A DNA stretch of 35,736 nucleotides from Gonapodya prolifera JEL478 (taxonomy: Eukaryota > Monoblepharomycota > Monoblepharidomycetes > Monoblepharidales > Gonapodyaceae): positions 428,697 through 464,432 of the forward strand of contig KQ965751.1 of assembly GCA_001574975.1 (NCBI GenBank). Reading direction: 5' to 3'. The notes under the pieces are model-generated. The model ran no database searches. It was not told the origin of the DNA and was given only the letters and a program-made list of their open reading frames with translations. Positions 7,115-35,736 of the stretch are shown here, piece after piece; position 1 is the first letter of the stretch; each line of letters opens with the position of its first letter. The translations under genes and the position numbers were made by a program.

Positions 7115-7723
7115 CGTCAGCCGTCGCGACAGGACAGCAACGCACCGATTGCATCAAGTCTGACTTCCCTTCGCAATGGCGCATCCACATTCTTGACCGG
7201 GTGGAAAAGTCTAGAAGCTAAACGTGGTTTGACAGGAAGTGTGCGCTGTGATGATTTTGACACGTCGAAGCAGATCTCGACTTTTGACTATGTCCACTAT
7301 GCGTTCTAGACATGCTGTCTCCAGACGGCAATTTGGATTACAGTCGTAGATATAAAATTTTTCTGCGAAATCGCGGCGAGATTGCGAAACTGCGTGGTAA
7401 CAGGTGACGTCAAAGTGTCTCTTATTGATCGGGCATCAGGATTGATTTTCAGGATGTATTCCCCGGAAAATATCAGGGGACACTTCTACAGACCAAAAAT
7501 AAAGTGAACGAAAAGCCCGACGCGACGAGGTCACGTGCTTTGGTTTGAATTGGCTTTCGAATTGCGGTAAGGCAGGGCGGGTAAACGATGATGCGATTTT
7601 TGCACAGGGCTGAAGGGGGGTTAGGACGCCACGCACACGAATCGGATCGCAGGCAGAGACGGTGGCCCAGCGACGGCGACGAGAAGAAGAGAAAGAGAAA
7701 GAAGAAGAGAAGAAGAAGAGCCG

Positions 7724-10075
7724 ATGGCGAACGAGGGACGCAAGAGCTTTGGCGACAGGGTGCAGTCGCGGCGGAGACAGTCGGCGGTGGCGGCGGGAAC
7801 ATCCGCAGCTGCACAGGCGAGCAACGGGACGGCGACGAGNGGGACACAGTCGACGGGACATGGACGCAGCCCGTCGTCGCAGTCAAACTTCTCCTTCACA
7901 TACACAGTCAGAAGTAACGGGGAGGAGAAGCGCAAGGGACTCTTTGGCGGGCGAGACAGAGACACGTCTGGCAGCAAGAAAGGCGCGCTCGGTGGGCTGG
8001 GAAGCGTCTTTGCCGCCGTGAGGTCTACGGTGAGGTTGGGAAGGACTGGCGGCGCAGCTGACACCGGCGAGTCGACACCCGGGGCAGACTCCAAGGACAT
8101 TGGCGGTGGTGGCAGCAGACTGCACTTGGGAACATCAAAGTCACTGGCCGGGTTAAACATGGGCATGGGAATGGGAATCGGGGGCAAGCAGCCGGCTTCA
8201 CCCGCCCCATCCCTTCCTGAAACCACACAGTCAGACGACGACGACGACGACGACGACGACGCGTCCCTCGGCGCGCTCACAGACTCCGAAGTCTACGTAA
8301 GGAGGGGAAAGAAGGACCACGGTGCCCTGTCCCCACGAAGACTCACCGACACGGACTTCAAGCCACTCGCCCTGTCGCTGTCCCTGCCAGACTTTGGCTT
8401 CGACATTTCCGATTCAGCCTCCGTTGCACCAACCTCTCACGTCGCATCCCCTCGCAATACCAATCCCACGCCGCCTCTCACACCACGCCTGCCCACGCCG
8501 TCAGTCCTCCCCGCCCAAACCGTCGAATCGTTCCAGTACCCAGTCCCCTTCTCAGACGATGCCGAAGAGCAGCAAACCCAACCGTCGCTGTCGAGGAGAC
8601 TATCGCAGAAGCGGAAACACCAGAAGGCGTCCAAGTCGGCTTCGGACATGGCTGCAATCGCAATGGAAGCCACCTCGTCACCTCCACCCCCCCCCTCGAC
8701 CTCCTCCTACCCCGCACCCGCACCACGGCCCCTCTCCACACCGCAACGCCAAATCACGTCCTCTACCACATTCATCTCATCTCCAAACGTCGCCTCATCC
8801 ACTCCCGACCCGTCTTCCTACGCCTACCGAACCAGCCCTCCTCCGCACCCCCACTCGCAATCCGCCTGGCCCACACCTTCAACATCCCCATCCTCCCATA
8901 CTTCCACACCTCCCTCCGTATCCCCCGTACCTGCCCCAACCTCCGCACCTCCCGCCGACTCCCCCGCCCTCCTCTCCGCCCTCTCCGTCCTATCATCTCA
9001 CATCGCTTCCCTCTCCGCCGCCCTGCACGCAACTCGCGTCGCCTCCGAGACAGCCCTGTCCGAAGCCCGCGCCGCAAAGGACGAAGCGCGTGCTGCGAGG
9101 GAGGAGGCAAGGGCGGCGAGGGAGGCCGTGACAGGGATTGGCGAGAGCATGGCGACGTGTGCCGACGCCTCGCGAACCGCCGAACGAGCCGCCCGGCGCG
9201 CGCACGAGGAAGCGACCAAGGCCGCCCAGGGTGTCGCGGAAGTGGCCGGGGACGTCAAGGCCGTCAAGGAGTCCCTCGACACCCTCGTCGCCAACGCCTC
9301 GTCATGGGCGCCTAACCGGACCGCTAGTGTCCGAACACCACCACCGGTTATTTCCACCGTGCCAACGAGCGCGTCGTTGTCGGGCTATAGGTCCTCCTCC
9401 GAGTCACCCCGCGTCGCGCAGGAGCACGACAAGGCGGCCAGGACGGGGTCGGCGCTCGCACTGACTCGCACAACGCCCGTGCCCAAGAAAGTCGACGGCC
9501 CGCGTGCACCCTCGGCGCAGGGGCATCAGCAGGGGCAGGCTGGGTTGATGCAGGCCGGGATGGGCGCGATGGGCGCGGTGCCCTCACCGGGGATGACAAT
9601 GGGCCAGATGGCAGGAGCACAAATGGCACCGCTTGGCCCCACCCTCACCTCCATGCCCTCCATGTCCAACATCGCCATGCAACACATGCAACCCATGCCG
9701 TCCATGCCGTCCATGCAGCAAATGCAGCCGATGCAGCCCTGGCAGCTTCAAATGGCACACATGGCCCAGCTCGCCCAGCTCCTGCCCGGGTATGGACCCC
9801 CGCAACCCGCAGCCTGGGCGGGTATGCATCCGCAACCGTCCCCGATTCTCTCCTCGGCGTCCTCCCCCGCGCTAGTCGGTGGTGGGGGGTACCCGTTCCC
9901 CGTGCCGACGTATACCGTGCCACTCCAAGGACAAGGGCAACAGACGCTCCCGAGGGCGCCGAGTCCGGCCCTAAGTGAGATTTCGGCTGTGAGTAGTCCT
10001 CGCGGTGGGCAGGCCAAGAGCGAGGTGGGAAGTGCGGTCGGGGGCAGGAGGAAGTTGGGCGGGTTGATGCGGTGA
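7724..10075 (+). CDS. Large low-complexity protein with coiled coil and Met/Gln/Pro-rich region
   Basis: A single exon of 783 residues. The N-terminal 150 residues are basic and Ser/Gly-rich. Nine Asp in a row at about residue 171 come from a (GAC)9 tract. A Pro/Ser/Thr-rich stretch runs from about 220 to 415. Residues 419-525 form an Ala/Glu/Arg-rich helix with heptad-like spacing ([20 protein letters not shown]), likely a coiled coil. Residues about 605-690 are rich in Met, Gln and Pro ([20 protein letters not shown]). No enzyme motif, membrane segment or signal peptide is visible. It may be a disordered scaffold or RNA/cytoskeleton-associated protein; I cannot name it. One ambiguous base (N at 7840) makes residue 39 unknown. 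The start is the first ATG in the open frame, right after a purine-rich leader. Confidence 0.8.
8234..8260 (+). repeat. (GAC)9 microsatellite inside the coding region
   Basis: Nine uninterrupted GAC units encode a run of nine Asp in the 783-residue protein. The tract is in frame, so length changes by whole units would not break the gene. Confidence 0.9.
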
Positions 10076-10928: not shown

Positions 10929-13295
10929 TTACTGCTTTTCATCGGCATCGGTCAAAGTCTCCGTATCATCGTCAGGAAGTCCCAACTTGGACACATCAAA
11001 TCCTTGTTGTTGCGCATACTCGCGGAACAGAGCGTCCTCGCGGGTCATCCACTTAAGTATGAGTCGTATTAGGACAATGCGGTGAAGAGGGACGAATTCG
11101 GGGGGGAAATAGTGCGTGATTGACATTGAGCTCATGGCGAAAACGTGTTCACTCGCACTTACGTCTGCATTGATGTTGGGGATCAAGAAAAATGTGATCA
11201 ATGCTCCCAAAATAGACAGCGAGCTCCCGATGTAAACTGGTACAGTTTCGCCAGCAACAGTGTCAGAACCACCGACGTCGTTTTGAATGGGGGTGAAAAC
11301 ACTATTCGAGAAAAGTTGCTCGCGTGATCAATAAAACCTCTTGACATCACGTCGAACGAAATACTCACTAGGTCGCGACAAAAGCTCCGATCTTGCCCAC
11401 AATCGCAGCAGTAGAGTAGAAGATACCGCGACATACGGTAGGGCCAGTCGCTTTCGTGGCTATAAAACGAGTCGTCAGCTAAACAAAGAAATCGAAAAGA
11501 TCTGGAGTCAATCCACCGTACGTACCCATCACACCGATACAGTTCCCGGGACCAAGCTCCCCAAAACTCAAGTAAATGCCATACAAAATTGCGAACGCCG
11601 CGATATTGTTCTGCAAATTGGTGTACGCAGCGGACATTGCGAACCCGACAATGGCTTGAAGTATGAAGCCAATTATCATCGTATACCTTTGTGACGAAGA
11701 AAGGGTCAGAAAGCAGTTGCGCAAGTCGCCGACACACTAACTTCGGTCCAAGGCGGTCGACAAGAAACAAGCCAGCGAAAGTACCAGGGAGGTAGAAAGC
11801 ATTGATTACGACGTCCCAAGCCAAGTTTGACTTGACGTCGCCATCGCCAATAATAGCGCTCACGATCGTGGAGCTGTAGATACCCGCGGGGTACGCGACC
11901 CAGTCGTAAACAAACCAGCACGCGCAAACTCCGAGAAGTCGAGGCCAATATCGTTTGAAAATGAGGAGCCACGGCAGTTCAGACGTTTTCAAGGCTTTGC
12001 CACTGGACCTCCTGTAGAGCTTCGGCTCGCGCATGGCCATTCGCATGGGAAGAACAATGAGGGGAAGGACAGCACCGAATCCGAGAGTAAGGCTGGGTCA
12101 TGCGAGTTGAAGAATTAGATTACTCAAGAAGTAGTGCCCCTTTAAGCTCGCGGAGCTCACCGCCATGACCAACCGAGTCCTTCGGCGTCAGTTCCAAAGA
12201 TATATACGCAGATCCACGGCTGACACAGATTCTGGTGAGAAGAGATGATCACGTAATTCGACATGGAGAAAGCCAACTCACCACCAAGTATGCTGCGACG
12301 AAACCAAGATCGATTGCACTGTTGGTGGCAAGCACAAGGAGCTTTTGTTGGTTTCCCTTGTGAATTCCTTCGTCTTCGGTGTTCTCCGAGGCTGCGATTG
12401 AACCTGCAGGGTACTACCACGCGGACAGTCATTAGTCATAATTATTAAATTCCATATCGTAAAGTTCAGTTCGCGGCAGTTCGGTTGCTCACCTCAGCTC
12501 CGATTCCGAATCCCAGCAAGAAACGGTATGCGATAAGGAGTTTCCAGAGGGTGGTAGGGTCCCTTCCCCCATAAGCGATTCCGGATAGGAGGGAGAATAA
12601 GGCAAGCCAGGCAGCAGCGAATATCACTAGCGTTTAAGTGTGATGAGTCCATTTCCTTTGGGATGCGAGATAAAGATTGTTACTTACTTCCAGGTTTCTA
12701 TGTTTGTCGAGAGATTGGATAGTCAGAAAACGAAATCTGATCGTCAATTGGACACAAACCCGCCCAACTCGATCCGACAGGTACCCGAACGTCGCCTGCC
12801 CTATGATGATGCCGACAAAACCAAGCGAAGCTGAATGTTTGGAACGTCGAAGACGATCAGAGATGCGTCGTCATCACTCGTTGCGGAGGTGCAAACGCGC
12901 TAAAAAGTGCCCTTACAGAAAAGAGTTCCGTAGTACGGATCATATGAACCGGGATAAACTTGCTGAAGGAGGTAGCGGGCAGCACCTGCAGGATGGTGAT
13001 ATTTGCTTGTGAAACTGGGTTCTTGCAAGAGCAGAACACGGCGAACTAACCGGAGGATGCGTTTGTGTATCCATCGGCGAATAACACTGATGGGAGGAAA
13101 GGTTTCGAAGTTTTCTTGAATTCTTGGGTTCCGAGGATTGACTTCCAAGACAACGGTAGCTCACCAGCCCCACACGCGATCACGTTGCTGTAACAAAAGG
13201 AATAGAGTGGTCGGTCCGGCTGCACGTTTTCGACCAAGAAGCGTTACCCACGCGACTTTACTCCAGGATTGAGCTCTCGGTTCAATCGCTGCCAT
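10929..13295 (-). CDS. GIT1-like major facilitator permease (glycerophosphodiester/phosphate type)
   Basis: Fourteen exons on the minus strand: 13252-13295, 13165-13187, 13051-13086, 12917-12985, 12760-12830, 12688-12697, 12493-12626, 12282-12413, 12161-12219, 11742-12092, 11526-11686, 11369-11459, 11163-11301 and 10929-11051. Together they give 480 residues. It keeps the MFS signature GYLSDRVGRKPG after TM2 (about 71-84), GFGIGAEYPAGSIAASE (about 123-139), WSWRLTLGFGAVLP, and ELGPGNCIGVMATKATGPTV in the C-terminal half. These match the sugar-porter-like phosphate/GIT1 branch, plasma-membrane proton symporters that take up glycerophosphoinositol or phosphate. TM helices cover most of the chain and the C-terminal tail is acidic. 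Exon 6 is only 10 bases long but is needed for the GRKPGM motif. Yeast Git1 is about 518 residues. The exact substrate cannot be read from the sequence. Confidence 0.88.
12688..12697 (-). other. 10-base micro-exon of the permease gene
   Basis: The minus-strand bases AAACCTGGAA are flanked by TAG acceptor and GTAAGT donor signals, with 62- and 61-base introns on either side. They supply K-P-G and the first base of the following Met, completing the family motif GRKxGM. Without it the frame breaks. Confidence 0.8.
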
Positions 13296-16581: not shown

Positions 16582-18213
16582 TTACACTCCATCCCCGACT
16601 AATTTCCCAGTCGGTCCCCCATACCGCCGGTACGCCCAAAGTCCCAGCACTGCAAGTCCAACAGCCCCCACCGCAAAGTACATAGTACCACCCCAGCTCG
16701 ACGACGTGTCTCTTCGACGTCTTCGCTTTCGCTTCTCAGGGGAATGTCCGTTTATAGACCGGTCTATGGGCGTGGCAGGTCGCAGCACGCCGGAATCCAC
16801 GTCGGCTTTCACTTGCGCTACCAAGTCCCCGATCGGGGTTTCGGGGTGTTGGCGGTCAAGCTCGACCAGTCGCTCGATTCCCTTGTCGCCGAGTTGGGAC
16901 AGTTCTTCGGGAAGACTCAGTGTATGGTCGAGCATGTTGGCGGCGCGGAAGAGACGGACAGCTTGCTCGACGTTACGCTGTACTCCGGCACCGTTTGCTA
17001 GCAGGCCTGGTCCGTTCAGAAGGAGAACGGCGGTGTTGTAGCAGGATTGAGGGTGTCTACCGTCCGTAAAGCAGGTGTACAGGTTTGTGAACGTCAGAAA
17101 AGGCGACCCCCCCAAAAAGTCGGACGCGAGTCACACACCCTAAAGCCACGGAATGCTTCCAATACTCCATCGCCATCTGCGGATTCCCCTCACCGATCCC
17201 AAATCCGCCCTGCAAACACATCAACCCGGCATTAAAGCACGCGTCCTTGAACAGCTCCGGCCGAGTCTCCCGCAAATCCTCCACGCCAAATACGGCCCTG
17301 TCCATCCACCGCAGCGCCTCTTTGAAGTTGGGCTCCGCCCCTTCGACATCGGGGTTCGATGGGTTCTGGTACGATCCGGCGATGGCGTAACATGCGACGG
17401 CGCTTCCGTCTTCGGCGGCGGAAAGGTAGTAGGAGTGAGAGAGTGCGGGATCGGGTTTGATGGCGTCGCCGGCACCGAGGTGGTACGCCGCGGCGAGACG
17501 GAGTTTTGCGTATGTTGAGCCCCGTTTGGCGGCTTCCTCCAGCATCCTGACAGTGTCCTTCACATCTGCGAGATGGTCCTCCTCGTAGTAGTTCGCAAGG
17601 AGGAACAACGAGTGTGAATCCAGAGTCGGGTCATCCAGGAGCTCATCTGGAGTTGCGACGGGTTGGAGATGTGCCTGAAGACCGGATCGGATCAGGACTG
17701 GCCAGGGGATTTGGTTCGACGGGTGTTTCTCCAAATGGATGGTGACGAGTTTTCGGGGGGAATTTTTGACATTCTCGACTTGCCTTGTTGGAGAGATTCG
17801 AGTGTAAGAGGTTCAACCTGCTCCACCTCGATTACCAATCCCAGACAGTAGACGGCTCACCACAAAGACTCGAACGCATCGGCTTTTCCGAACAATGTGC
17901 CCAAGATCCGGTATGTCTTTTCTCCCTTGAGCTGCACTTCCAGCGTCGTTTCCTTGATCTTCACCGTCAAGTCTTTGGTCTGTCGCAGCCAGTGCAGAGC
18001 CATCAGCGTGGTCACGGAAAGTGACACCGTTATGCCGACCGTGGTTAGATACTCATCGTCAAGCAGAACCCGAACAAGTCGATCACCCACGGAAAACGTC
18101 GAAGGCACCGAAACCGTCACATCCACGTATTTGGCCGACTGAGCAAAGGCGTAAGCCAACGCCGCCTGCGAGGGATCGGAAGCGGGTGGCGGCGGGCCAA
18201 ACGTGGACAGCAT
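16582..18213 (-). CDS. Sel1-repeat membrane protein
   Basis: Minus-strand exons 17861-18213, 17139-17783 and 16582-17056, giving 490 residues. A hydrophobic segment lies at about residues 58-76 (VGITVSLSVTTLMALHWL). Residues about 160-400 contain Sel1/TPR-like helical pairs: AKLRLAAAYHLGAG, AVACYAIAGSYQNPS, ACFNAGLMCLQGGFG, SCYNTAVLLLNGPG and AVRLFRAANM. A basic run (KRKRRRRRD) precedes a C-terminal membrane helix (YFAVGAVGLAVLGLWAY), leaving a short tail. The layout suggests a membrane-anchored adaptor, possibly mitochondrial or ER, with the repeats between the two anchors. Sel1 repeats bind proteins; the partner is unknown. The second exon uses an AAG acceptor, chosen because it is the site that joins both frames without a stop. 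Confidence 0.78.
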
Positions 18214-19216: not shown

Positions 19217-19777
19217 GTTGATCGCTTCTTCTTGCTGTGATTGATTCCGCTGAAAGGTGGATATTTGCCCGACTCAGCACCGACGTCGTTCACATCCTTC
19301 CAAACGAAATTAAATTGGAGATCCAATTGCAATTCGTAATTAATTTTTTCTCTCTGATGAGCAATGATGTTATGGACGGGCACAGTGATGATTCGTTGCG
19401 CCGGGTGGCACAAAATCTCGCGCCTACTTTCTTTTCCTGCACTGGGGGCCGGGGAACGGCATTTCGCCTCTGGGGAAAATAATGATCTATTTTAATTACT
19501 ACTACTTGGGCACATGCCCCCAATTCCCGAATCAGCAGCTTGCTGGAAGGGCGAGTGCACAGTTCGATTGCGAAACTCGGTGGCACAGTTGTGGCGCAGA
19601 GAGGGTGCTCTGGTGGTGGTGGAACTCGCCCTGAAATCACGCGAGGCCTGGTGAGTCCGTCGCAGCAAACTCGCCCCTTTGCACTCGCTAATATTCTCTA
19701 CTCTTTATCCTGCGCTTCCGCCGCCGCCGCTCTCTCGCTGCATCAACGCCTTCGATCTCTCGCAACCTTTGCAAACC
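19217..19777. promoter_or_regulatory. Divergent promoter region
   Basis: 561 bases between two start codons pointing away from each other. The centre is AT-rich (around 19305-19345) and the right side GC-rich. It presumably drives both the small helical protein and the RING-H2 gene. No gene and no specific operator are recognised. Confidence 0.5.
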
Positions 19778-22700
19778 ATGAAGACCGCTTTCAACGCCTT
19801 CGCTCCCGCCTACCACAACTACACGGTGGGCGCTGTGCATCTGATGGGCTCGTCGCAGTCACGGAGTGCGGATGTGGGCGCAACTGGGGCACCGGAACAC
19901 AGGAATGTGACTCAGCATGCACCGATGCTCGAGGTCGCAAGCGCGGCAACCGCACCACCCGCACCCCAGCAACACTCACAAAACACTCAGCCCATGCTCA
20001 CGGTTCACCCAAGACCTTCAACAGAGTCCACCAGACGCTCTGCTTCTCGCTCTCGCCCACATTCGCCCTCCGCCGGATCGGACTCGGACTCGTCGCAGGC
20101 CCACGCAAGGTCTCGCTCCCGCGTGAGAGACACAACTCCGTACCGTCGCTCGGTGACTGCCTCGGTTTCTGCCAGGTCCAGACTTAGAGGAGGAGCCGCA
20201 GAAACCGCACGTGGTCGCAGGTCGTGGCCAATAGAAGCCAGCAGGGAGTCGTTCACGGACAGCACGCACGTTCACGGGCATCACTCGGCGAATCATCTTA
20301 GTGATGCAACGTCCTTCTACAACGGCGAAGCAGCTACTTTGCCACCAAGTGCTTCGTTCGCAGCCCGACCAATCTTGTCCATCACTGAAGACGGAAACGC
20401 AATCGCAGGAGCAGGAATTTCGGATCAATCAATGGATATCGATTCAGGTGAGTCTGCTTTCAAACTTACTCGCTCCTCTTCGGGGCCTCATCTTCGCCGA
20501 TCCGGATGCGCTCGCCGCCGGTCGTCTTCGCAACTCGCCCGATTAACCGCAACCTCCAACCCAGACCCCCACCCAACCGGCAGTCTGGCCAACCTCCCCG
20601 ACCTCGTCGACATTGTCGACTCGCCCACGACATCTGCCAGACCTGATTTTCTCGACGGATCGAGGAGGGGACCGGATGTGGGATCTGTGGACAGTTCCAT
20701 TCCAACCCCCGTTGACTCGGCATATGGAGGATCGCCCCAGCAGGACGCTCCCATATCGGACGCCCACCGACCCCAGTCAGTCATGGGGGGTCCTGCGAGT
20801 TTGGTCTCGGCCCTCCTCTCCCTATTTACATCCCCAACCATCCCGACAACACCTACTCCCACTCCAGCACAACAACCTTTGAATGCGCCCTCGGACCCGG
20901 TCGCCAACCCCGCTACAACAACCCCAACACCAGTCCCGCCCCTCGGCCGTCTCCTCACTTCACTCTTCGCTCGTCGTGCCGGCGCGGCTAGTGCCGCACT
21001 TACAGATGGCGTCACCACCGTCCCAGCACCTCCAGCACTACTTAACCCTCCCCGCCCGTTCTCAACGTTCCGTTTGGCTGTTCCCACTCGCCGCTCCTCG
21101 TCGCCACCTTCGTCTGATGATGGCACTGCAGATGTTGGCATATCCACCTCCATGGGTTCAACTGATCGCAGCGGGAGCCAGGGGCCTCCTGCGCAAGTGC
21201 CAATTGTAGTCATTGGCGTGCGTCGCGGGAACTCCAGGACGGAAGGCGCTCCGAATACGACACAATCGAATGTGACTGTTGGAGCTGATAACGCCGAAAC
21301 TCAGGCCAGAGAATCGGACGAGCCGGCCAGTGGTATCGCTGAGCACCTACCAGTCGACGCCGTGACTCCTCAAGAGGGATCCGTATCAGGCGGAAGTGAC
21401 ACCACGTCCTCCACGAATGCAACGAATGCTCGCGAGCGCCAGCCGTACGTTCTTTATGTCGTCACAGGCCAGGTCAGTGTTGGTCCCTTTGGTCCTTTTT
21501 TCATCTCGAAATGCATCAACTCGAATTTTGTCTTTATCTCTCTCCACAGATTACGGTCAGTCCCGGTACACCACTCATGGAAGAACTGGAGCAAGCCCGC
21601 TCCCGTGCACGTGCAAGAGCTGGTCGCACAACGCCGCAGCGTACCCCGTCTCCTCCTGCCACAACCGATGCTCGCCCGACGTCCGAAGTCGAGACCACGG
21701 CACAGGATGGGATGAGTGGAGACAGTGGAAATGATGCTGCTCGTGGATTCAACTGGAGAGACCTGGCGCTTCTTGGTGGAGGCAGTAACTCTCGTGTCGC
21801 TGACCGAGGTACTGGCATTGGATCCAGCGTCGACCGAGCACGCTCCCTCTCCCAATCATCCACTCGTCCTGCTCAGGATGCGGGCATCGATACGGTATCT
21901 CCGGCTTCGCCCATCAACCCTCCTGCCCACGTCGATGCGGTCGACGAACAATCAAATGCGTCATCTGCAGAATCCTCAACAGCAACACTTCCATCAGTAC
22001 CATCGTCCCCAACCCGTGGTGATTCTACTCCTCGCACCTCGACCCGTGGCCCTCGATCTCGATCACCCTTTGGTGCCTCTGACTACGAGCTTCTCCTTCT
22101 TCTAGCTGAGTTGTTGGGTCCCGCTAAGCCCAGGCATGCCAAGCGAGAGGACGTCAATAAAGTGGGAGAGTGGGTCTATAGGGTGGACGAAGGAGGTGAC
22201 GGTTGGATTGAGGAAGTGAAGGAAGATTCTGAGGGTGGTCAGGTTGACGAAGGAGCTCGGCTGGCCGATGAAGATGGAACGAAAGACGTCAGCATGGAAG
22301 ACGCGACGCTGGCTGTGGACAAAGACGGCGATCTTGCGATGTCGGACGAATCTCACTCCACAGAGGATGGAATCCACACTTCCCCAGTCAAAGAAATCGC
22401 ACGTATTCGCCACCCCACCTCCCATCTCCTCGCCTCCACGGGTACTTCTTGCTCCATCTGCATCACGCCCTACGCTGTTGGTGACCGACTTCGCCTCTTA
22501 CCTTGCCGACATGCGTTCCACACCGGTTGCTGCGACGAATGGCTGACGGGGTATAACAACGCCTGTCCCGTCTGCCGCGTCAAACCTGTCGAGAGCGAGC
22601 CTGCTGCTCAACCCACTCATCGCTCGCCCTCACCCTCGCCATCGCCGATTGATGGGCCAACAACAGCCGCTGCTGGCTTCCCCGGTACTACTACGGGAGG

Positions 22701-22884
22701 AGCTGGCAGTCCCGCCTCTGTTGCTTCCCTGGTAGCTCGTTTGCTGTCTGGAAGGGGAAGGGGAGACGGATGGGTCGGACCAGTCCCCGCCGTTTTGGGA
22801 GACGAGATGGGTGGACCTGCGGGTGCCCGTGGTGGTGGTGCGGGGTTGATGTTCTTCATGATGGGGGAGACTGCCAGCAACTAG
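19778..22884 (+). CDS. Large RING-H2 protein, probable E3 ubiquitin ligase
   Basis: Exons 19778-21472 and 21550-22884, joined in phase 0, give 1009 residues. About 860 residues of Ser/Thr/Pro-rich, probably disordered sequence lead to a RING-H2 at about 866-908: CSIC, then CRHAFHTGCCDEWL, then CPVC. This gives the C3H2C3 zinc pattern and the Trp used for E2 contact. An acidic stretch (about 785-845) sits just before it. The region after the RING is Pro/Gly/Ala-rich. A second in-frame ATG at 19844 would give MGSSQSRS, a good N-myristoylation context; which start is used is undecided. A GTGAGT inside exon 1 near 20449 is not needed as a splice site, because the frame stays open on both sides. 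The role is likely ubiquitin transfer to unknown targets. Another RING-H2 gene lies just downstream on the other strand. Confidence 0.83.
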
Positions 22885-24637: not shown

Positions 24638-26720
24638 ATGCCGGCGCCTCTTTCCCGCGACACCAATCTTGTGCGTTCCCAGCAATTCAGCGTCGACGTC
24701 TCCGGCATCGCCACTCCCCTCGGGCGTCCGCTCATGGGTCACGAATCCCGAGGGTCTCTGAACGCGCTGCACGCCGCATCGACGTTATCTCTCGCAAAGA
24801 AAAGACAATCAGGCGCAGGGCTGGGGGGGATGGGATCAAGTGCGTTGTCCCCGGGGTTTCAATGAAAGCGCCGGAGTTCAAACACACTTTTGTACTCCGC
24901 TCATGTTTCAAGGAATGTCGTTGTTAAAGGGGAGGGAGAAGAGTGACAAAACTTCTTACGGTGGGAGCAGCATTCCTGAGCCAGTCTGCAAAGGCATCGC
25001 AAAGCTCAAGTTCTCCAAGAGGTGGATGGAATGATTGCGTTCCGAATCAGTCGTCCGCGCTCACGGCAACCTCGGAATAGGTTCGAAACCGAAGTGCAAG
25101 TGGTGAAATTCTCATCGGATGATGAGTACATCGCTGTTGGGCTCGGGGATGGAAAGATAAATGTCAGTACTTATCCACGAATGACTCGTGGTACTCCTGA
25201 ACGGCCAGAAGTCTCCTTACCGGTCACTAGATATTGCACGCAAAGTCCACTCTTCTCGTTCAATCTCTGGTACCACCCACAGAAACATCCACTGTTCCTT
25301 CGCTGCCTGGCGCCAAGTCAGCTTCAACGTCCAACCCGCTTCTCGCTTCACTGGAATCGATCAGTTATCCATGCACAAGCTTAGCCTGGAGGTTTGATGG
25401 ATCCAAGGGCGGAGAGAACTGGACGAGGAATGTCTTGGTGGCTGGATGTGAGTTTGAAGGGTAGCGACGATTCTCATTCAATGCAATAATGCGTTTGTCG
25501 GTCTCGTACTCCCTTGAAGACGCCGACGGGCGCTTCCTGCACTGGCATGCCACTACTGGTGTCCTCCTCGCATCCAAACGAACCGCAGAAAGCGACACGT
25601 TCGGCCCAACTGGTTCTAGTCCCATCACGTCCGTAGATTCTTCACGTGACGGGTCCTATTCTGCATGTGTGGGGGACGAGTGCGTCGTTCGATTGTGGGA
25701 TGAGATGGAGAATCGCTGGAAGGGACTACTCAAAGGAGGGTAAGTTGATAACCATGCGCCTTGCGACGTGTTAAGGTTCCCCTCTGAAATTTTCAAACGA
25801 AAGAAACAATCCAGAACTACAGGGCCCCACTTCTCGCTCGTTCGTGGTTCGGATCCACCCCCATACGTTCACGACATTACTTACTGCAGGATGGGATAAC
25901 ACGATCCAACTGTGGGACACACGAGTAGGCTCCGCCGTCTCTCGAATTTACGGTCCATACACGTGCGGAGAAAGTGTGGATTGGGACGAAGCAGGCCAAC
26001 GAATTGTCAGCGGAAGCTGGCGCAAAGAAAACCAGGTCCAAATCTGGGATTATCCTTCGGGGAATAAAGTCGAGACTGTCAAGTGGAGTCTGTTCCCAGA
26101 TGCCGCAGCAAAATCGACAATGATATATACGGCGGGGTTCTCACATCCAGTGAACTTTGAGGGTACCATGACGCCGTCTACTGTTCGGTTCACAAGAGAT
26201 GGCCCAGGGCAAGCTTACTCGGTATTCTCAGGCCAGAGTACATCAGGAGAACCAAGAGAACTCGTCAAGGATGTACATCTCCCCGATGGCACCGCAACAA
26301 GCAGGCTATTTTTTGCGGCTGGGAACGGTGCTCACGCGGGGCCCGCTCCTAAGTCACAGGGAGCGGGCAGTCGGAATGACTTGTCTCAAACCACCACAGA
26401 AAGAAGTCCGAATCCAGGTTCTAACGGGAACGGATCCAACGCCGCGGCAGCTCCTCCGGGTGGTGAAGCAAAGATTTTTGGGCAGACGGTGTTCGGTCCC
26501 CGAGTAAGTCTTTGTGTACTCATATTTGAAAGGACGGTGGATCTTAGAAATAACAATGTTCTAGTGTGTGGCGCATATCACCGGGGTTCCATCCAGTGTT
26601 TACAGCATGGGGATCTCGTATTCAGAGCGTCTCGCTGCGCTTGGCGGAAGCGGAAACATTCTCTACGTTTTCGATCTTGCAACGACGGGAGACCCACGTG
26701 ATCTTGAGTTTTTGTATTGA
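24638..26720 (+). CDS. WD40-repeat protein
   Basis: Seven exons: 24638-24839, 24913-25021, 25081-25162, 25231-25447, 25520-25739, 25804-26503 and 26565-26720, giving 561 residues. A non-repetitive N-terminus of about 100 residues is followed by WD repeats: VVKFSSDDEYIAVGLGDGKI, CTSLAWRFDG with VLVAGYADGRFLHW, ITSVDSSRDGSYSACVGDEC ending RLWDEM, VVRIHPHTFTTLLTAGWDNT ending QLWDTR, VDWDEAGQRIVSGSW ending QIWDY, and SMGISYSERLAALGGSGNIL ending VFDL. A Gly/Asn/Ser-rich insertion separates the last two blades. This is one beta-propeller of six or seven blades, a protein-binding platform. I cannot assign an orthologue. Three introns use AAG acceptors. A simpler CAG acceptor before exon 6 would break the frame. 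Confidence 0.82.
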
Positions 26721-29672: not shown

Positions 29673-31558
29673 ATGCCGTTCCTTCGTGTGCTTTTCACGG
29701 GCGGCAGCCATCTGATCATCATCCGCGATGAGGCATTTCCAAAGACGCTGGAGGATCTCGCCGACTTTGTGCAGACTCGGGTGCCAGAGCTGGCGGGGTT
29801 GCCACCCCACACGGTCGCGTGGACGTTTGTAGATGGCCTGCGGCGCATTCATCTCGACTCGGATCGGGCGGTGGCGGAAATGTGGGGCGATGCGACGGAT
29901 GGCTACTGGATGGTGGAAGCTGCTTTGGTAAGCGTTCGAGGCGGGCATTTTAATCACCGAGTCTTTTGCGACGTGATATCCAATGCAATGCAAAGATATC
30001 CAATACAAGCTCACGCTCTTTGGGTGCTCGGCAGGCCGGCACCTCGACGACAAACATCTCCCCAGCCCTCTCGCCTGTCACACTCAGAGGGCCAGACTCT
30101 GCTCGCCCACTGTCACCTGCAAATACTCTGGTCTCACCGCGTGAAGGGCGAATGGAAATACCTGCGGTGTACCCTAGGACGGCTGAAGGCGCAGTCCTTT
30201 CGCCATCGGATAGTGCAGCAGCAGGACCCATACGACAACGTCGCTCTTCTGACCAGAAGCGGTTCTCCAGCACCAGAAACTGGTTGTCATTCCGCTCCTG
30301 GGGTGATCCTGACGTCACCGAACACATCGGCAAGAGCGACTTTTCGCCGTACGTTCCACAAAATGACGGACAGGGGTCAGACAGGAGGGGGTCAGACAGG
30401 AGGGGCTCCACCAGCGCGTCGGAGAGGAGAGGGTCAAACAGCGGCGCGCCGGTGCCCCTAGCCGGTGGTGCACCATTAGCTACCAACGGTTTTCTTGGAG
30501 TCGGGCGTGTGCAGCCTCCACGGAGTGTTTCGGAAAGTGCGATTTCAAATCTGGGCGTCACGTCGGACAGTGACACTGATGCGAGCTACCACCAACATGG
30601 TGCGATCATAACGAGAGGCGCACATCGTAGCCTAAGCCCCAGCGCGTCAGTGGACAACTTTGGACGTCGCTTGTCGTCTTCATTTGCGCTGGCGTCTCGC
30701 GCCAAGTCACCCAACGAGGGAACCACACTCGTGCAGCGACATTCCAGGACCCGCACGAGCAGCATGGACATGCGTCCCCTCGCTGGACTCTCTCGCACAA
30801 ACACGCTCCGGAGGGATGCCGTGACCTTTACTTCGAGTGACATTGGAATTAACCTCCAGGTCTCGAACCTTGACTACATGTTTCCGCTTCGCTGGAAGAG
30901 TGAACTGACCTCGTCTTGGAAGGATATCATGGGGAGCGTGGCGAATGTGGAGTGGAGTGAGCAACGAGGTTGGTCTTACCGACAGGTGCGGATCTTGTGA
31001 TTCTGCTTTGTCGAGACATCGTGCGAATCTCAATACATTCCCCGCAGTCCGAAGTTGACACCAACGCCTTTTCAATCCGTTACACGCCCTTTCGAAGAGA
31101 TGACGGAATAAGTCGAACCTTGTGCAACGTGGAGATTGTGAGTTCACAGTTATTCCTCGCTTGCTCAACTGTTGGTACTAAACTGCCTTTTCCTACTACT
31201 CCAGACGTTTCTGTACAATTCCAAGTGTCTCTTCACCGCGGCGAAAAAGAATCTCAGTCAGAAGATTGACGCTCTCCGAGTCGTGGCATTCTACAACGAC
31301 TTTGTGGCCCCGCTCCAAATTCCCGACTCACCCAGCTCTCGTGCGCTCATCTGGCGTCGGAAATCGGAACGAAAACACATCGCGACGCCAATCATCACCG
31401 AGTGGGCCGCGATAGAATCGCCAGACGCTTTCGGAACTGCGGACCTCCACGTACTATATATCGTCCGCGCCGGTCAGGAGGCATTGAGTGACCTTTGTAA
31501 AAGGTCGGCCGAAGATTGGATTCTCAGGGTCTTGAACCTTGCGGTCATTCGCAAATGA
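29673..31558 (+). CDS. Unknown protein, tandem paralogue A
   Basis: Exons 29673-29927, 30035-30985, 31048-31137 and 31205-31558, all in phase 0, give 549 residues. The N-terminal block (1-85) starts MPFLRVLFTGGSHLIIIR, followed by a helix LEDLADFVQTRVPELAG and a final WMVEAAL. Its strand-strand-helix order and the acidic 'HLDSDRAVAEMW' stretch recall a ubiquitin-like or PB1-like fold; this is a guess. The middle (86-350) is Ser/Arg-rich with three RRGS motifs near 200-220. The C-terminal block (about 365-549) begins LRWKSELTSSWKDIMG and includes EQRGWSYRQ, LRVVAFYNDFVAPL, DLHVLYIVRAG and CKRSAEDWILRVL. Paralogue B shares the N- and C-terminal blocks, the four-exon structure and a third exon of exactly 30 codons. 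No membrane segment or known enzyme motif is visible. Confidence 0.75.
30373..30403 (+). repeat. 15-base tandem repeat inside paralogue A
   Basis: Two copies of GGGTCAGACAGGAGG encode GSDRR twice in a row and help create the RRGS cluster. The repeat is in frame. Confidence 0.7.
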
Positions 31559-31985
31559 CTTGATTGATCCGGTATGACCTGCGTATATCTTCTTCTCGAG
31601 CACTTTCCATGGACTTTTCTCGACTTGTAAAATCGTTTTACTACCTCACTAGACAGTTTTGATGATACCTTACACATATATTTGTAAACTCTACTCTAAT
31701 CTGGTATAAATTATGAGTGAATGGCAAACACCAAACGAAACAAATTTACTAAAGTAAGGCTCGCTGGAGAATGCTTACTCTGTACCGATTGAGTAAGACG
31801 GTTTCCGTTTTCGGGTTTCTGTCAGGACACCGCCCGCCATGACTCACCAACCGCACTCAGACGGGATCTTGAAACCACCCCACACAATCGAAGAGAGACT
31901 CGCATTTTTGGCGTCCATCTGTCAATCTCGAACCCTTTTCGACGTGATGTTGACGGTTTGCCGGGACAGCGCCCGTTCAGAGAAC
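31559..31985. other. Intergenic region between paralogues A and B
   Basis: 427 bases, AT-rich in the first half. It should hold the 3' end of A and the promoter of B. The open frame of B extends upstream to an ATG at 31839; the start at 31986 is preferred because it aligns with the start of A. No other gene is visible. Confidence 0.5.
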
Positions 31986-33960
31986 ATGGCGCCAATTCAA
32001 CGACTCAGGATTCTTCATCCATCCGGCTCGAACCTCATTATCGTACGACCGGAACAACGTCCCTGGAATCTGCTTGATTTCATTGCATTCCTCAAAACGC
32101 GCCTTCCACCTGCGCTGGGGAACTTTCGTCCCGAGGATATGAAACTTGTTGTGTCGGAGGGGGAAAGTTACGACGAGTTCGAGCTGCTTTCCACAGAGGA
32201 TGTTCGGAGACTTTGGGCGAGTCCTGAAGTCGCATTGACGTGCAATGTAGAACTAGTTCCTGGATATGCTCCCGAGGTGCAGTGTTTCTCGAAGTTTTTG
32301 TTTCGCCTGCTGCTTCTTCAACTCGCTTGCACGTCCGGAAACTCACCAGCGAGCTATCATCGGTGTGGATGTTCCATTGCCGCCTCGAAAATCGTCGCCC
32401 CCGGGTGGTCGTCGCAGATTGCCACCGATCCCTGACACCGACGCTCGGCGGATATCGGAACTCACGTTGAGTGATGAAGAGGTCCGGAAACCTCCAAAAG
32501 GTAATACGGTCGACAATCCACCGCTGGCGTCCAGGACGCTGCCCGGCCAAATCGCAATCGCCCCACCTCCCAACCTACAACTCCCGTTGGAGGACTTATC
32601 TTCCGATTCCGATTCACTCCCACTCTCGACAGTCCACTCACGTCACAGTATCCACTCGTCTGTGACGGCGACCTTGAGTGATGTGGTGAATGAAGACGAG
32701 CTTACCGACATTTCGAATGTGGAGGTTCCGACCATCGCTCGACCGAAGGGACACTCGCTGAACGTGATGACGACCGCGAAGGATATTCTTCCTGGAATGT
32801 TCCGCTCACGCGTGCCGGACGCCGTGGAGAAGGGCTACGTTTCTATCTATTGTGACGTGGGGTTTGACAACGGAGGTGATGTGGGACGCTTGGTCTCGGC
32901 AAATGCCCACCCAAATGTCGGAGTCACTCGTGCAAAGCGTATTGATCGCCCCAGTGCCACAGTGGATCTGTCGCCTCAGGATACCGCTGAGCCGGAGATT
33001 ACGCTCAGCATCTCGAACCATGGACCCGGAACTCCACCCAGTACACCACATCCTCTGGCGCCAGGCGGAGGCACTCGCGCACTAAATGTGTATCGCCGAC
33101 TGTCGCTGTTGAATCTAAAGCCGACACAGGGATATTCTGCAGCGTCGACAACTTCCTCCAGTGTTAACGCTGTCCCACCTTCGAATGGACAGCTGGAGGA
33201 GCAACTGCGGATATTTTTATCGGGAGGTGGACATTATGATGCTGAGCTGATGTGGAAGAGCGAGGAGGACGCAACGTTCAGGGAAATCATGGGAGAGCTT
33301 GCGGACGACCGATGGACTCTGCAACGAGGCTGGGGCTACAAAATGGTAATAAATGTGCATTGTTATATTGTGCGTCACCAATCACAATTTTTCCTGACAT
33401 GATACGTCCCCAAAGGTTGCGATGGATTCTCATCGGCATCTGGTGCAATACATCCCGCGGAACACTTCCTGGGAGAAAGTGAAAAGCCGTGGCTACCTTC
33501 AATTTGTGAGTTTGTGAAGTCTTTTGATCTGTCCCATCCCTTCTCCAATCCTTCCATGTGACTTGTGTGATACCTCTGCGCTGAAAAGACCATAATTTAT
33601 AATTCATCGCACCTCTTCCACACGGCAAAACGCACCCTCCCCACAAAACTGCCAGACCTTCGTGTTCCCACTTTTCATACCGAATTCATTGAGCCACTCA
33701 GCTCCCCGACGCATGGACCGGGCGCTGGGAGGCACACGGAGTGGGCGTGCCTCTACCCAGAAGGTCGATTCAGACCACCAAATGATGGTTCCGGGGATGT
33801 CCACGTTGCGTACGTGGTTAGAGCGGCAGGAGATGAGCTCGGACATAGCTGTAAGAGGGTCGTTGAGGACTGGGTCAGGAAGATGGTTGGAGTCCAAGGT
33901 GATTGGGGTGAGTGCATGAATGTGTTAAATCTATATTATGGCGAATGTCTGACACCTTGA
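31986..33960 (+). CDS. Unknown protein, tandem paralogue B
   Basis: Exons 31986-32276, 32350-33345, 33416-33505 and 33589-33960, all in phase 0, give 582 residues. The N-terminus MAPIQRLRILHPSGSNLIIV matches paralogue A (hydrophobic strand, GS turn, LII strand), followed by LLDFIAFLKTRL. The middle is Pro/Ser-rich and differs from A. The C-terminal block realigns: LMWKSEEDATFREIMGELAD, LQRGWGYKM, TIIYNSSHLF, LRVPTFHTEFIEPL, DVHVAYVVRAAG and CKRVVEDWVRKMV. Exon 4 was placed by homology to A; its acceptor is AAG. A GTGAGT near 33907 could splice onto 34004 and replace the last residues, ending near 34045. An upstream ATG at 31839 would add 49 residues. Function unknown. Confidence 0.72.
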
Positions 33961-35736
33961 AAAACCATTGATTTCTGCTTTTGCTCATCGCTGTGGTGCC
34001 TAGCTCTATCTGCTGCCGCTCCCAAGTTCCGAGTCTGGCGAGGTTAGAATTGCTCTGAGGATCAAAGCAGTTCCAGACTGTTATAATGCTTAATTCTTAT
34101 TGGTATATGTGTCGAATGGACTTTGTTAGAGCAGTGTACTTTTTGTCATTTGCATCATTACGTGCATTTTCATAATCAACCTGTGACGTGTGCCACCGAG
34201 TCAAAACGGCCATCCATTATTTAACAATTATTGAGAGTAAACCATTTCACATTTCACTTCTCTTCTTTACCATTTTTGGTGAAAATCATCAATAATTAAG
34301 TTTGGTGGCACAGGACAAATGCAATTTGTTTCATCTCATTGACGTGCCTCCCGCCCTGTGGCACAACCTGGTGACGCGAAGAAGACAAACGCAGGCAGAT
34401 AAACACGAGTACAGCTGTATCGTTTGAATTGCTGTGCTGCCTTGCCATGTGTGCGTCTTCCATTGACAGGCCTGAGTGCCTCGCTCGATGTTCAGAAAAG
34501 CTTCCCAGTTTCCGCATCAAGCAATCTATAGACCTCAACAATTGCCTGCAAAAGAACGAAAGGGTTTTAGTTGGGGGCGTTAATCAAGTTTGGGAGGTGT
34601 TGCAGTGATGGCTAGGAATTTCTCTGTTGGCTTTAGTTGACCATTGGCAATGAATGGCAGAAGTCACCCAGGCCTTTGCACACACATGTACGGAACTACA
34701 AATAAAGCATCTAATGAAGCGTGTTACTTGAAACTCAGGCATACAGCAGAAGCATTGCACCCAGATTCGAACAACCNNNGGTCACAACAGTAACCTGGCA
34801 GACCAACAACAAAGTATCAATTCTAAAGACTTGGTCTGACTTGCCTGCACAATCTACAAATTTCTAGCATGGATATAGACCCCGGAATCGTTGGTATAGT
34901 AGCACAAATATTGTAGATGTTGGCAGCACACGTCCCGCATCAACCCAATCCCCCTCCTGCTTCCCCTGTCTCACTCTAACCTCGCCATGCAGCTATTAGA
35001 GGTGTACGTTGTTGGGACCTGTGTCTTTGTTTCACAGGCAAAGCCATGAGGGGCGGTGATCCGGGGCTAAAATGTTAATTGAATGTGATTTCAAACATTT
35101 GTGATCCAACATTATCTTTTCCTTTTCCTTTTTGCAACTTTAATGCTGAAAACGCTCAAAGATTAAACTGAAATCAAAATGTATCAAGGTTAAAGGACAC
35201 CTGGCGGTTTTGCAGAACAAACGCTACACTTATATTTTCACAATTATAAATCATGAAGATAAAATACAGTCCACACCTTGCGCCAACCAAGCACACACCA
35301 ATGTGGCTGATACCAAAACATGCAAGACAATTTATCTGACTCTTCCAATTCAGATGCGGGGACTTGGGCTATGTTGCAAACAAAAAGGAGGTGCCAGTAC
35401 TTGGTGCAGTTGATCCTCCTCTCTCAGCTGGAGTGGATGATCCCAGCAGAAAGGTCTTTCTATGAAGACGCAAGGCTCAACTTGAATGCCATGTTGAATC
35501 CAGACTGCTTTTGGAACTTTCAGTGAGTTCTGGCAGGAACAATAAACACTGCTGTATATCCAACAAAGTCAACATTGTTCTGGACATAGTGCGGTAAGTG
35601 ATGTCAAGACTCTTAATCTGTAGATATCTTCGCCAGTAGCGCACTAGCCAAGATGATAGTAGAAGTTGAAGACAAAAGAAAGAGATCAAATCTATGCCCA
35701 AGAACTAAGTGGCAAAATCTTGGTTATCTCAATCCT
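33961..35736. other. AT-richer end region without genes
   Basis: 1776 bases with no open frame showing family features on either strand. The composition is visibly AT-richer than the rest of the window and lacks the short-intron gene pattern. An NNN gap sits at 34777-34779. No tRNA, rRNA, terminal repeats or transposase are recognised. It could be decayed repeat DNA or a long intergenic region. Confidence 0.5.
34777..34779. other. Assembly gap or ambiguous bases (NNN)
   Basis: Three N bases inside the gene-poor end region. The true local sequence or length is unknown. Confidence 0.95.

Follow-up and report, generated by a model that had tools for sequence, protein, structure and literature searches.

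A tandem pair of uncharacterised paralogues with conserved ends and a divergent linker in Gonapodya prolifera

Introduction

What do two neighbouring, similarly built genes of Gonapodya prolifera JEL478 encode, and do they amount to more than a pair of related proteins? The genes, called A and B below, lie in a window of 35,736 nucleotides, by which we mean the whole stretch of DNA that was analysed. An initial annotation had described them as tandem paralogues sharing the order of an N-terminal block (N-block), a long linker and a C-terminal block (C-block), and had put them forward as a candidate for an undescribed system. Here we ask how well the shared plan holds, which parts of the proteins are under constraint, and what kind of domain the N-block may be.

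Results

Gene models

To obtain the models, we translated the window with the splice sites that the earlier finding implied. They yielded two neighbouring genes on the forward strand, A (549 aa) and B (about 582 aa), each with four exons, all phase 0. These models confirm the common order of blocks and the common exon plan, including a third exon of 30 codons.

In gene A, exon 1 (29673-29927, 85 codons) carries the N-block, for which a PB1/ubiquitin-like topology is predicted. Exon 2 (30035-30985, 317 codons) holds a Ser/Arg-rich linker with five RRx[ST] matches and the start of the C-block (WKSE...QRGWSYRQ). Exon 3 (31048-31137), of exactly 30 codons, lies within the C-block, the remainder of which is encoded by exon 4 (31205-31558, 118 codons including the stop). 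Gene B follows the same scheme: the N-block in exon 1 (31986-32276, 97 codons), a Pro/Ser-rich linker with the C-block start in exon 2 (32350-33345, 332 codons), exactly 30 codons of the C-block in exon 3 (33416-33505), and the rest of that block in exon 4 (33589-33960), read until the stop ending at 33960.

The introns of both genes are short (62-107 bases), and this, with the neighbouring genes of eukaryotic type (the RING finger and the THOC3-like WD40 frame described below), agrees with a fungal origin. Numbered from the W of WKSE, residue 31 is followed by intron 2 and residue 61 by intron 3, in A and B alike. The same aligned positions suggest that the 30-codon exon was inherited rather than acquired by coincidence, and introns 2 and 3 of the two genes are, judging from the sequence, most simply seen as homologous.

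The start, first donor and 3′ end of B depend on the model and are uncertain. In-frame ATGs are present upstream at 31947 (13 more codons) and 31839 (49 more codons), the next in-frame stop being at 31794. The first donor (GTGCAG, 32277) is weak. Among introns of at least 45 bases, 13 donor/acceptor pairs leave the frame open in this region, five of them in phase 0; from these five we took 32277/32350, which retains most of exon 1. At the other end, a GTGAGT donor at 33908 and a TAG acceptor before 34004 would allow an alternative splice in which exon 4 ends at 33907 and a fifth exon, starting at 34004, gives a different C-terminus.

Conserved ends and free linkers

Two-sequence BLASTP aligned the C-blocks of A and B with 58 of 180 residues identical (E 2e-28). 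For the N-blocks it gave E 2e-06; the aligned stretch, 131 columns long, extends partway into the linker. We then compared each part with 2000 shuffles. None reached the observed score for the C-blocks (Z 49.4) or for the N-blocks (Z 12.6), whereas 588 did so for the linkers (Z 0.4), which agrees with the earlier statement that the linkers are unrelated in sequence. By these measures, the C-blocks are clearly homologous, and so are the N-blocks.

Additionally, identity at codon positions 1, 2 and 3 was 51, 57 and 29% over 170 aligned codons of the C-block and 46, 58 and 27% over 81 aligned codons of the N-block. This pattern fits constraint at the level of the protein in both blocks. Together with the shuffle scores, it upholds the proposal of two conserved ends under selection with a free linker between them. 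A tblastn search with A and B found no third copy in the window, as all matches outside both genes had E values of at least 1.4.

The C-block comprises about 180 residues and spans introns 2 and 3. The motifs that had been named for it are present in the alignment (WKSE...IMG, QRGW.Y, CKR..EDW), with one correction: DVHV occurs only in B, and A has DLHV at this place. The structure predicted for the exon-4 piece of the block was poor (mean pLDDT 47.2). A START/VASt-like fold, considered for the C-block, found no support in Pfam.

Ser, Pro, Arg and Thr abound in the linkers, and this composition, along with their lack of conservation, suggests that they are disordered. RRx[ST] is a consensus for a basophilic kinase such as PKA. 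The linker of A contains five such matches where 0.8 would be expected (5000 shuffles, p 0.0004), two of the five deriving from a short RRGSD repeat, and that of B contains two against 0.26 expected (p 0.025). A less strict pattern, R..[ST], is likewise in excess in A (15 against 7.5 expected, p 0.0016), in contrast to B (4 against 3.9 expected). No clear excess of [ST]P or P..P was seen in either linker.

Searches for families and relatives

Searches of Pfam-A with both whole proteins and with their separate blocks returned no family at E values up to 10; this covers the PB1 family profile as well as SH3, PX, RhoGEF, TPR and CBS domains. PDB sequences were searched with protein A, an N-block profile and a C-block profile, and all three gave matches at chance level only. 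The best E values were 0.57 for protein A, 0.78 for the N-block profile and 0.088 for the C-block profile, the last being a viral spike glycoprotein aligned to profile positions 51-101. Within Pfam-A and PDB sequences, these results support the view that the blocks belong to no known family.

When viral contigs were scanned, the alignments of the C-block, the N-block and exon 4 produced 14, 23 and 92 pattern matches, respectively; in prokaryote genome contigs, those of the C-block and exon 4 produced 21 and 18. None was confirmed as a relative. As each scan used two peptide patterns and the collections consist of viruses and prokaryotes, absence from them says little and has no bearing on fungi. 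A literature search with general terms, judged by titles and the openings of abstracts, found no description of the architecture of A and B.

Fold of the N-block

AlphaFold2, given the two exon-1 sequences, predicted a beta-beta-alpha-beta-beta-alpha order with moderate confidence (of five models, the best had a mean pLDDT of 65.7 and the other four had 41.7-51.2). At that confidence, the predicted order is that of PB1 (beta-beta-alpha-beta-beta-alpha-beta) minus the last strand. This topology is common to the ubiquitin superfold, and PB1 and ubiquitin have one fold in common.

A Foldseek search of the PDB with the predicted N-block gave 13 matches, none of them significant. Only two had a TM of at least 0.4, and both are PB1 domains: that of TFG (TM 0.50, 70 columns, E 6.8, 16% identity) and that of Cdc24 (TM 0.41, E 9.3).

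For profile comparison, a PB1 profile was built from the sequences of five proteins, each of which was represented among the chains retrieved by a PDB search. With hhalign, the N-block and the PB1 profile aligned in register across 61 columns (P 0.026). A rerun gave 52 columns (P 0.032), a score reached by 3 of 150 column shuffles. Ubiquitin relatives matched over 11 columns (P 0.04), and in the rerun ubiquitin matched over 26 columns (P 0.12), a score reached by 7 of 150 column shuffles; these values do not place the N-block in the ubiquitin family proper. As controls, the C-block matched the PB1 profile over 8 columns (P 0.26), and the PB1 and ubiquitin profiles matched each other over a single column (P 0.15) despite their common fold. 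The latter value indicates that the test has little power, so the weaker ubiquitin score leaves room for another ubiquitin-fold class. We regard the profile match between the N-block and PB1 as suggestive.

Sequence hallmarks were also considered. According to the available text of PMC8200828 and PMC2121648, PB1 pairing relies on two faces, one bearing a basic lysine and the other acidic OPCA residues. The beta3-beta4 region, which corresponds to OPCA, has three acidic and three basic residues in A and seven acidic residues and one basic residue in B. Neither contains the canonical acidic OPCA stretch (type I), as A is balanced and B lacks a DxDGD-like pattern. For the basic type II face, which lies near the first strands of PB1, the residues to compare are R5 (within predicted strand 1) and R18 (three residues past predicted strand 2) of A, and these are kept in B. 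Both are arginines, whereas the key basic residue of PB1, as given in the same parts of these sources (PMC8200828, PMC2121648), is a lysine. Neither N-block ends in GG, the C-terminal di-glycine of ubiquitin proper.

The initial annotation had loosely likened the N-block to a ubiquitin-like or PB1-like fold. That likeness survives in weak form, through the predicted topology, the two PB1 domains among 13 fold matches, all non-significant, and the in-register profile alignment, with a score that 3 of 150 column shuffles equalled. At best, then, the N-block is PB1-like, and we do not class it as a PB1 member.

Neighbouring genes

Several other features were noted in the window. A long open frame at 21400-22881 (+), rich in Ser and Pro, has a RING finger (Pfam zf-RING_2, E 3.7e-11) close to its end. 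This frame is overlapped by another at 19655-21712, which has no Pfam family and possibly belongs to the same gene. WD40 fragments occur in two frames within 24980-26698 (+): the frame at 25775-26698 (+) is closest to THOC3 (Pfam Beta-prop_THOC3, E 3.7e-11, 43 bits against a curated cut-off of 305), and the one at 24980-25381 (+) has weak WD40-type matches only. On the reverse strand, there is a fragment of a Sel1-repeat protein at 17060-17812 (Pfam Sel1, E 8.9e-11) and, at 11201-12097, a putative MFS-type membrane transporter, recognised by eye, whose raw frame has no Pfam match at E 0.01. Finally, a long low-complexity open frame of 816 aa (7625-10072, +), including one unknown residue, has no Pfam family at E 0.01; one stretch of it is rich in Ala, Arg and Glu and looks like a coiled coil, and another part is rich in Met, Gln and Pro.

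Discussion

A and B are a real, uncharacterised gene family, and we found no evidence of a new kind of system. The suggestion of an undescribed system is not supported; the evidence consists of one pair of uncharacterised paralogues.

The reading that we tentatively put first is that A and B are PB1-like adaptors encoded by a tandem pair of genes that have diverged, each with a linker that is disordered and possibly kinase-regulated and, at the C-terminus, a second globular domain. According to this reading, the two genes would be old tandem duplicates. The N-block would be a diverged PB1-like interaction domain of the ubiquitin fold, which may dock onto another PB1-like partner. The linker would be disordered and, at least in A, its RRx[ST] sites could be phosphorylated by a basophilic kinase such as PKA. 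The C-block would form a second globular domain that binds a ligand or a protein, and the whole protein would tether two things under the control of phosphorylation.

A realistic possibility, which we rank second, is that the N-block is a ubiquitin fold of another kind (RA, RBD or UBX-like), or an unrelated alpha/beta domain, and that the proteins are adaptors that serve a small GTPase or some other ligand. The predicted topology, being common to the ubiquitin superfold, would suit this equally; Pfam reports no PB1 match, A lacks a canonical OPCA, and the profile test discriminates poorly, as it could not link PB1 to ubiquitin. Against it, both fold matches with a TM of at least 0.4 are PB1 domains, and the profile match to ubiquitin relatives is shorter and weaker, with RA, RBD and UBX compared through Pfam only.

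We find it unlikely that the pair belongs to an orphan family that is specific to its lineage, evolves fast and lacks a conserved role as adaptor. The lack of any Pfam or PDB sequence match, and of relatives in the viral and prokaryote collections, is what such a family would show, but those scans, with two peptide patterns each, cover viruses and prokaryotes and so carry little weight here. Moreover, the ends and introns have been kept while the C-blocks have diverged to about one-third identity and the linkers have become unalignable, which suggests long-lasting constraint.

A more specific version of the PB1-like reading is rather improbable: A and B would form a complementary heterodimer through diverged PB1-like N-blocks, the acidic beta3-beta4 region of B binding the conserved basic residues of A. 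The pair would then have arisen by tandem duplication of a self-associating adaptor, and the C-block would have an undescribed fold.

The idea that one copy, or some of the exons, is mis-modelled or decaying could draw on the weak first donor, alternative starts and alternative 3′ end of B, but it is very improbable given the long open frames, the phase-0 introns in matching positions and the coding-typical third-position divergence in both genes.

If the PB1-like adaptor reading is followed, known proteins offer partial parallels. The N-terminal PB1 of TFG is the best length-matched fold match of the N-block (TM 0.50), with 16% identity and an E value of 6.8. TFG has a long low-complexity tail after this domain and, to our knowledge, no folded C-terminal domain comparable to the C-block.

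Among fungi, the PB1 proteins discussed in the available text of PMC2121648, a list that may be incomplete, are Cdc24, Bem1, NOXR and CBSn-PB1. Their likeness to A and B, as far as that text describes them, is a possible PB1-like fold at one end of the protein. In Bem1-type proteins, a serine-rich region precedes the PB1 domain (PMC2121648, same text), which may be compared with the Ser-rich linker of A and B. The architectures of NOXR, Bem1, Cdc24 and CBSn-PB1 presented there (PMC2121648) nevertheless differ from those of A and B, in which the PB1-like block is N-terminal and goes unrecognised by Pfam and, in the case of A, has no acidic OPCA stretch.

The pair points to a protein domain that is under constraint, is about 180 residues long and has no family assignment. 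Its intron plan, along with the motifs WKSE...IMG, QRGW.Y and CKR..EDW, should allow relatives to be recognised easily. Provided that the N-block is PB1-like, A and B would extend the fungal PB1 proteins covered by the available text of PMC2121648 by one architecture. If it is not, they would represent another uncharacterised fungal gene family.
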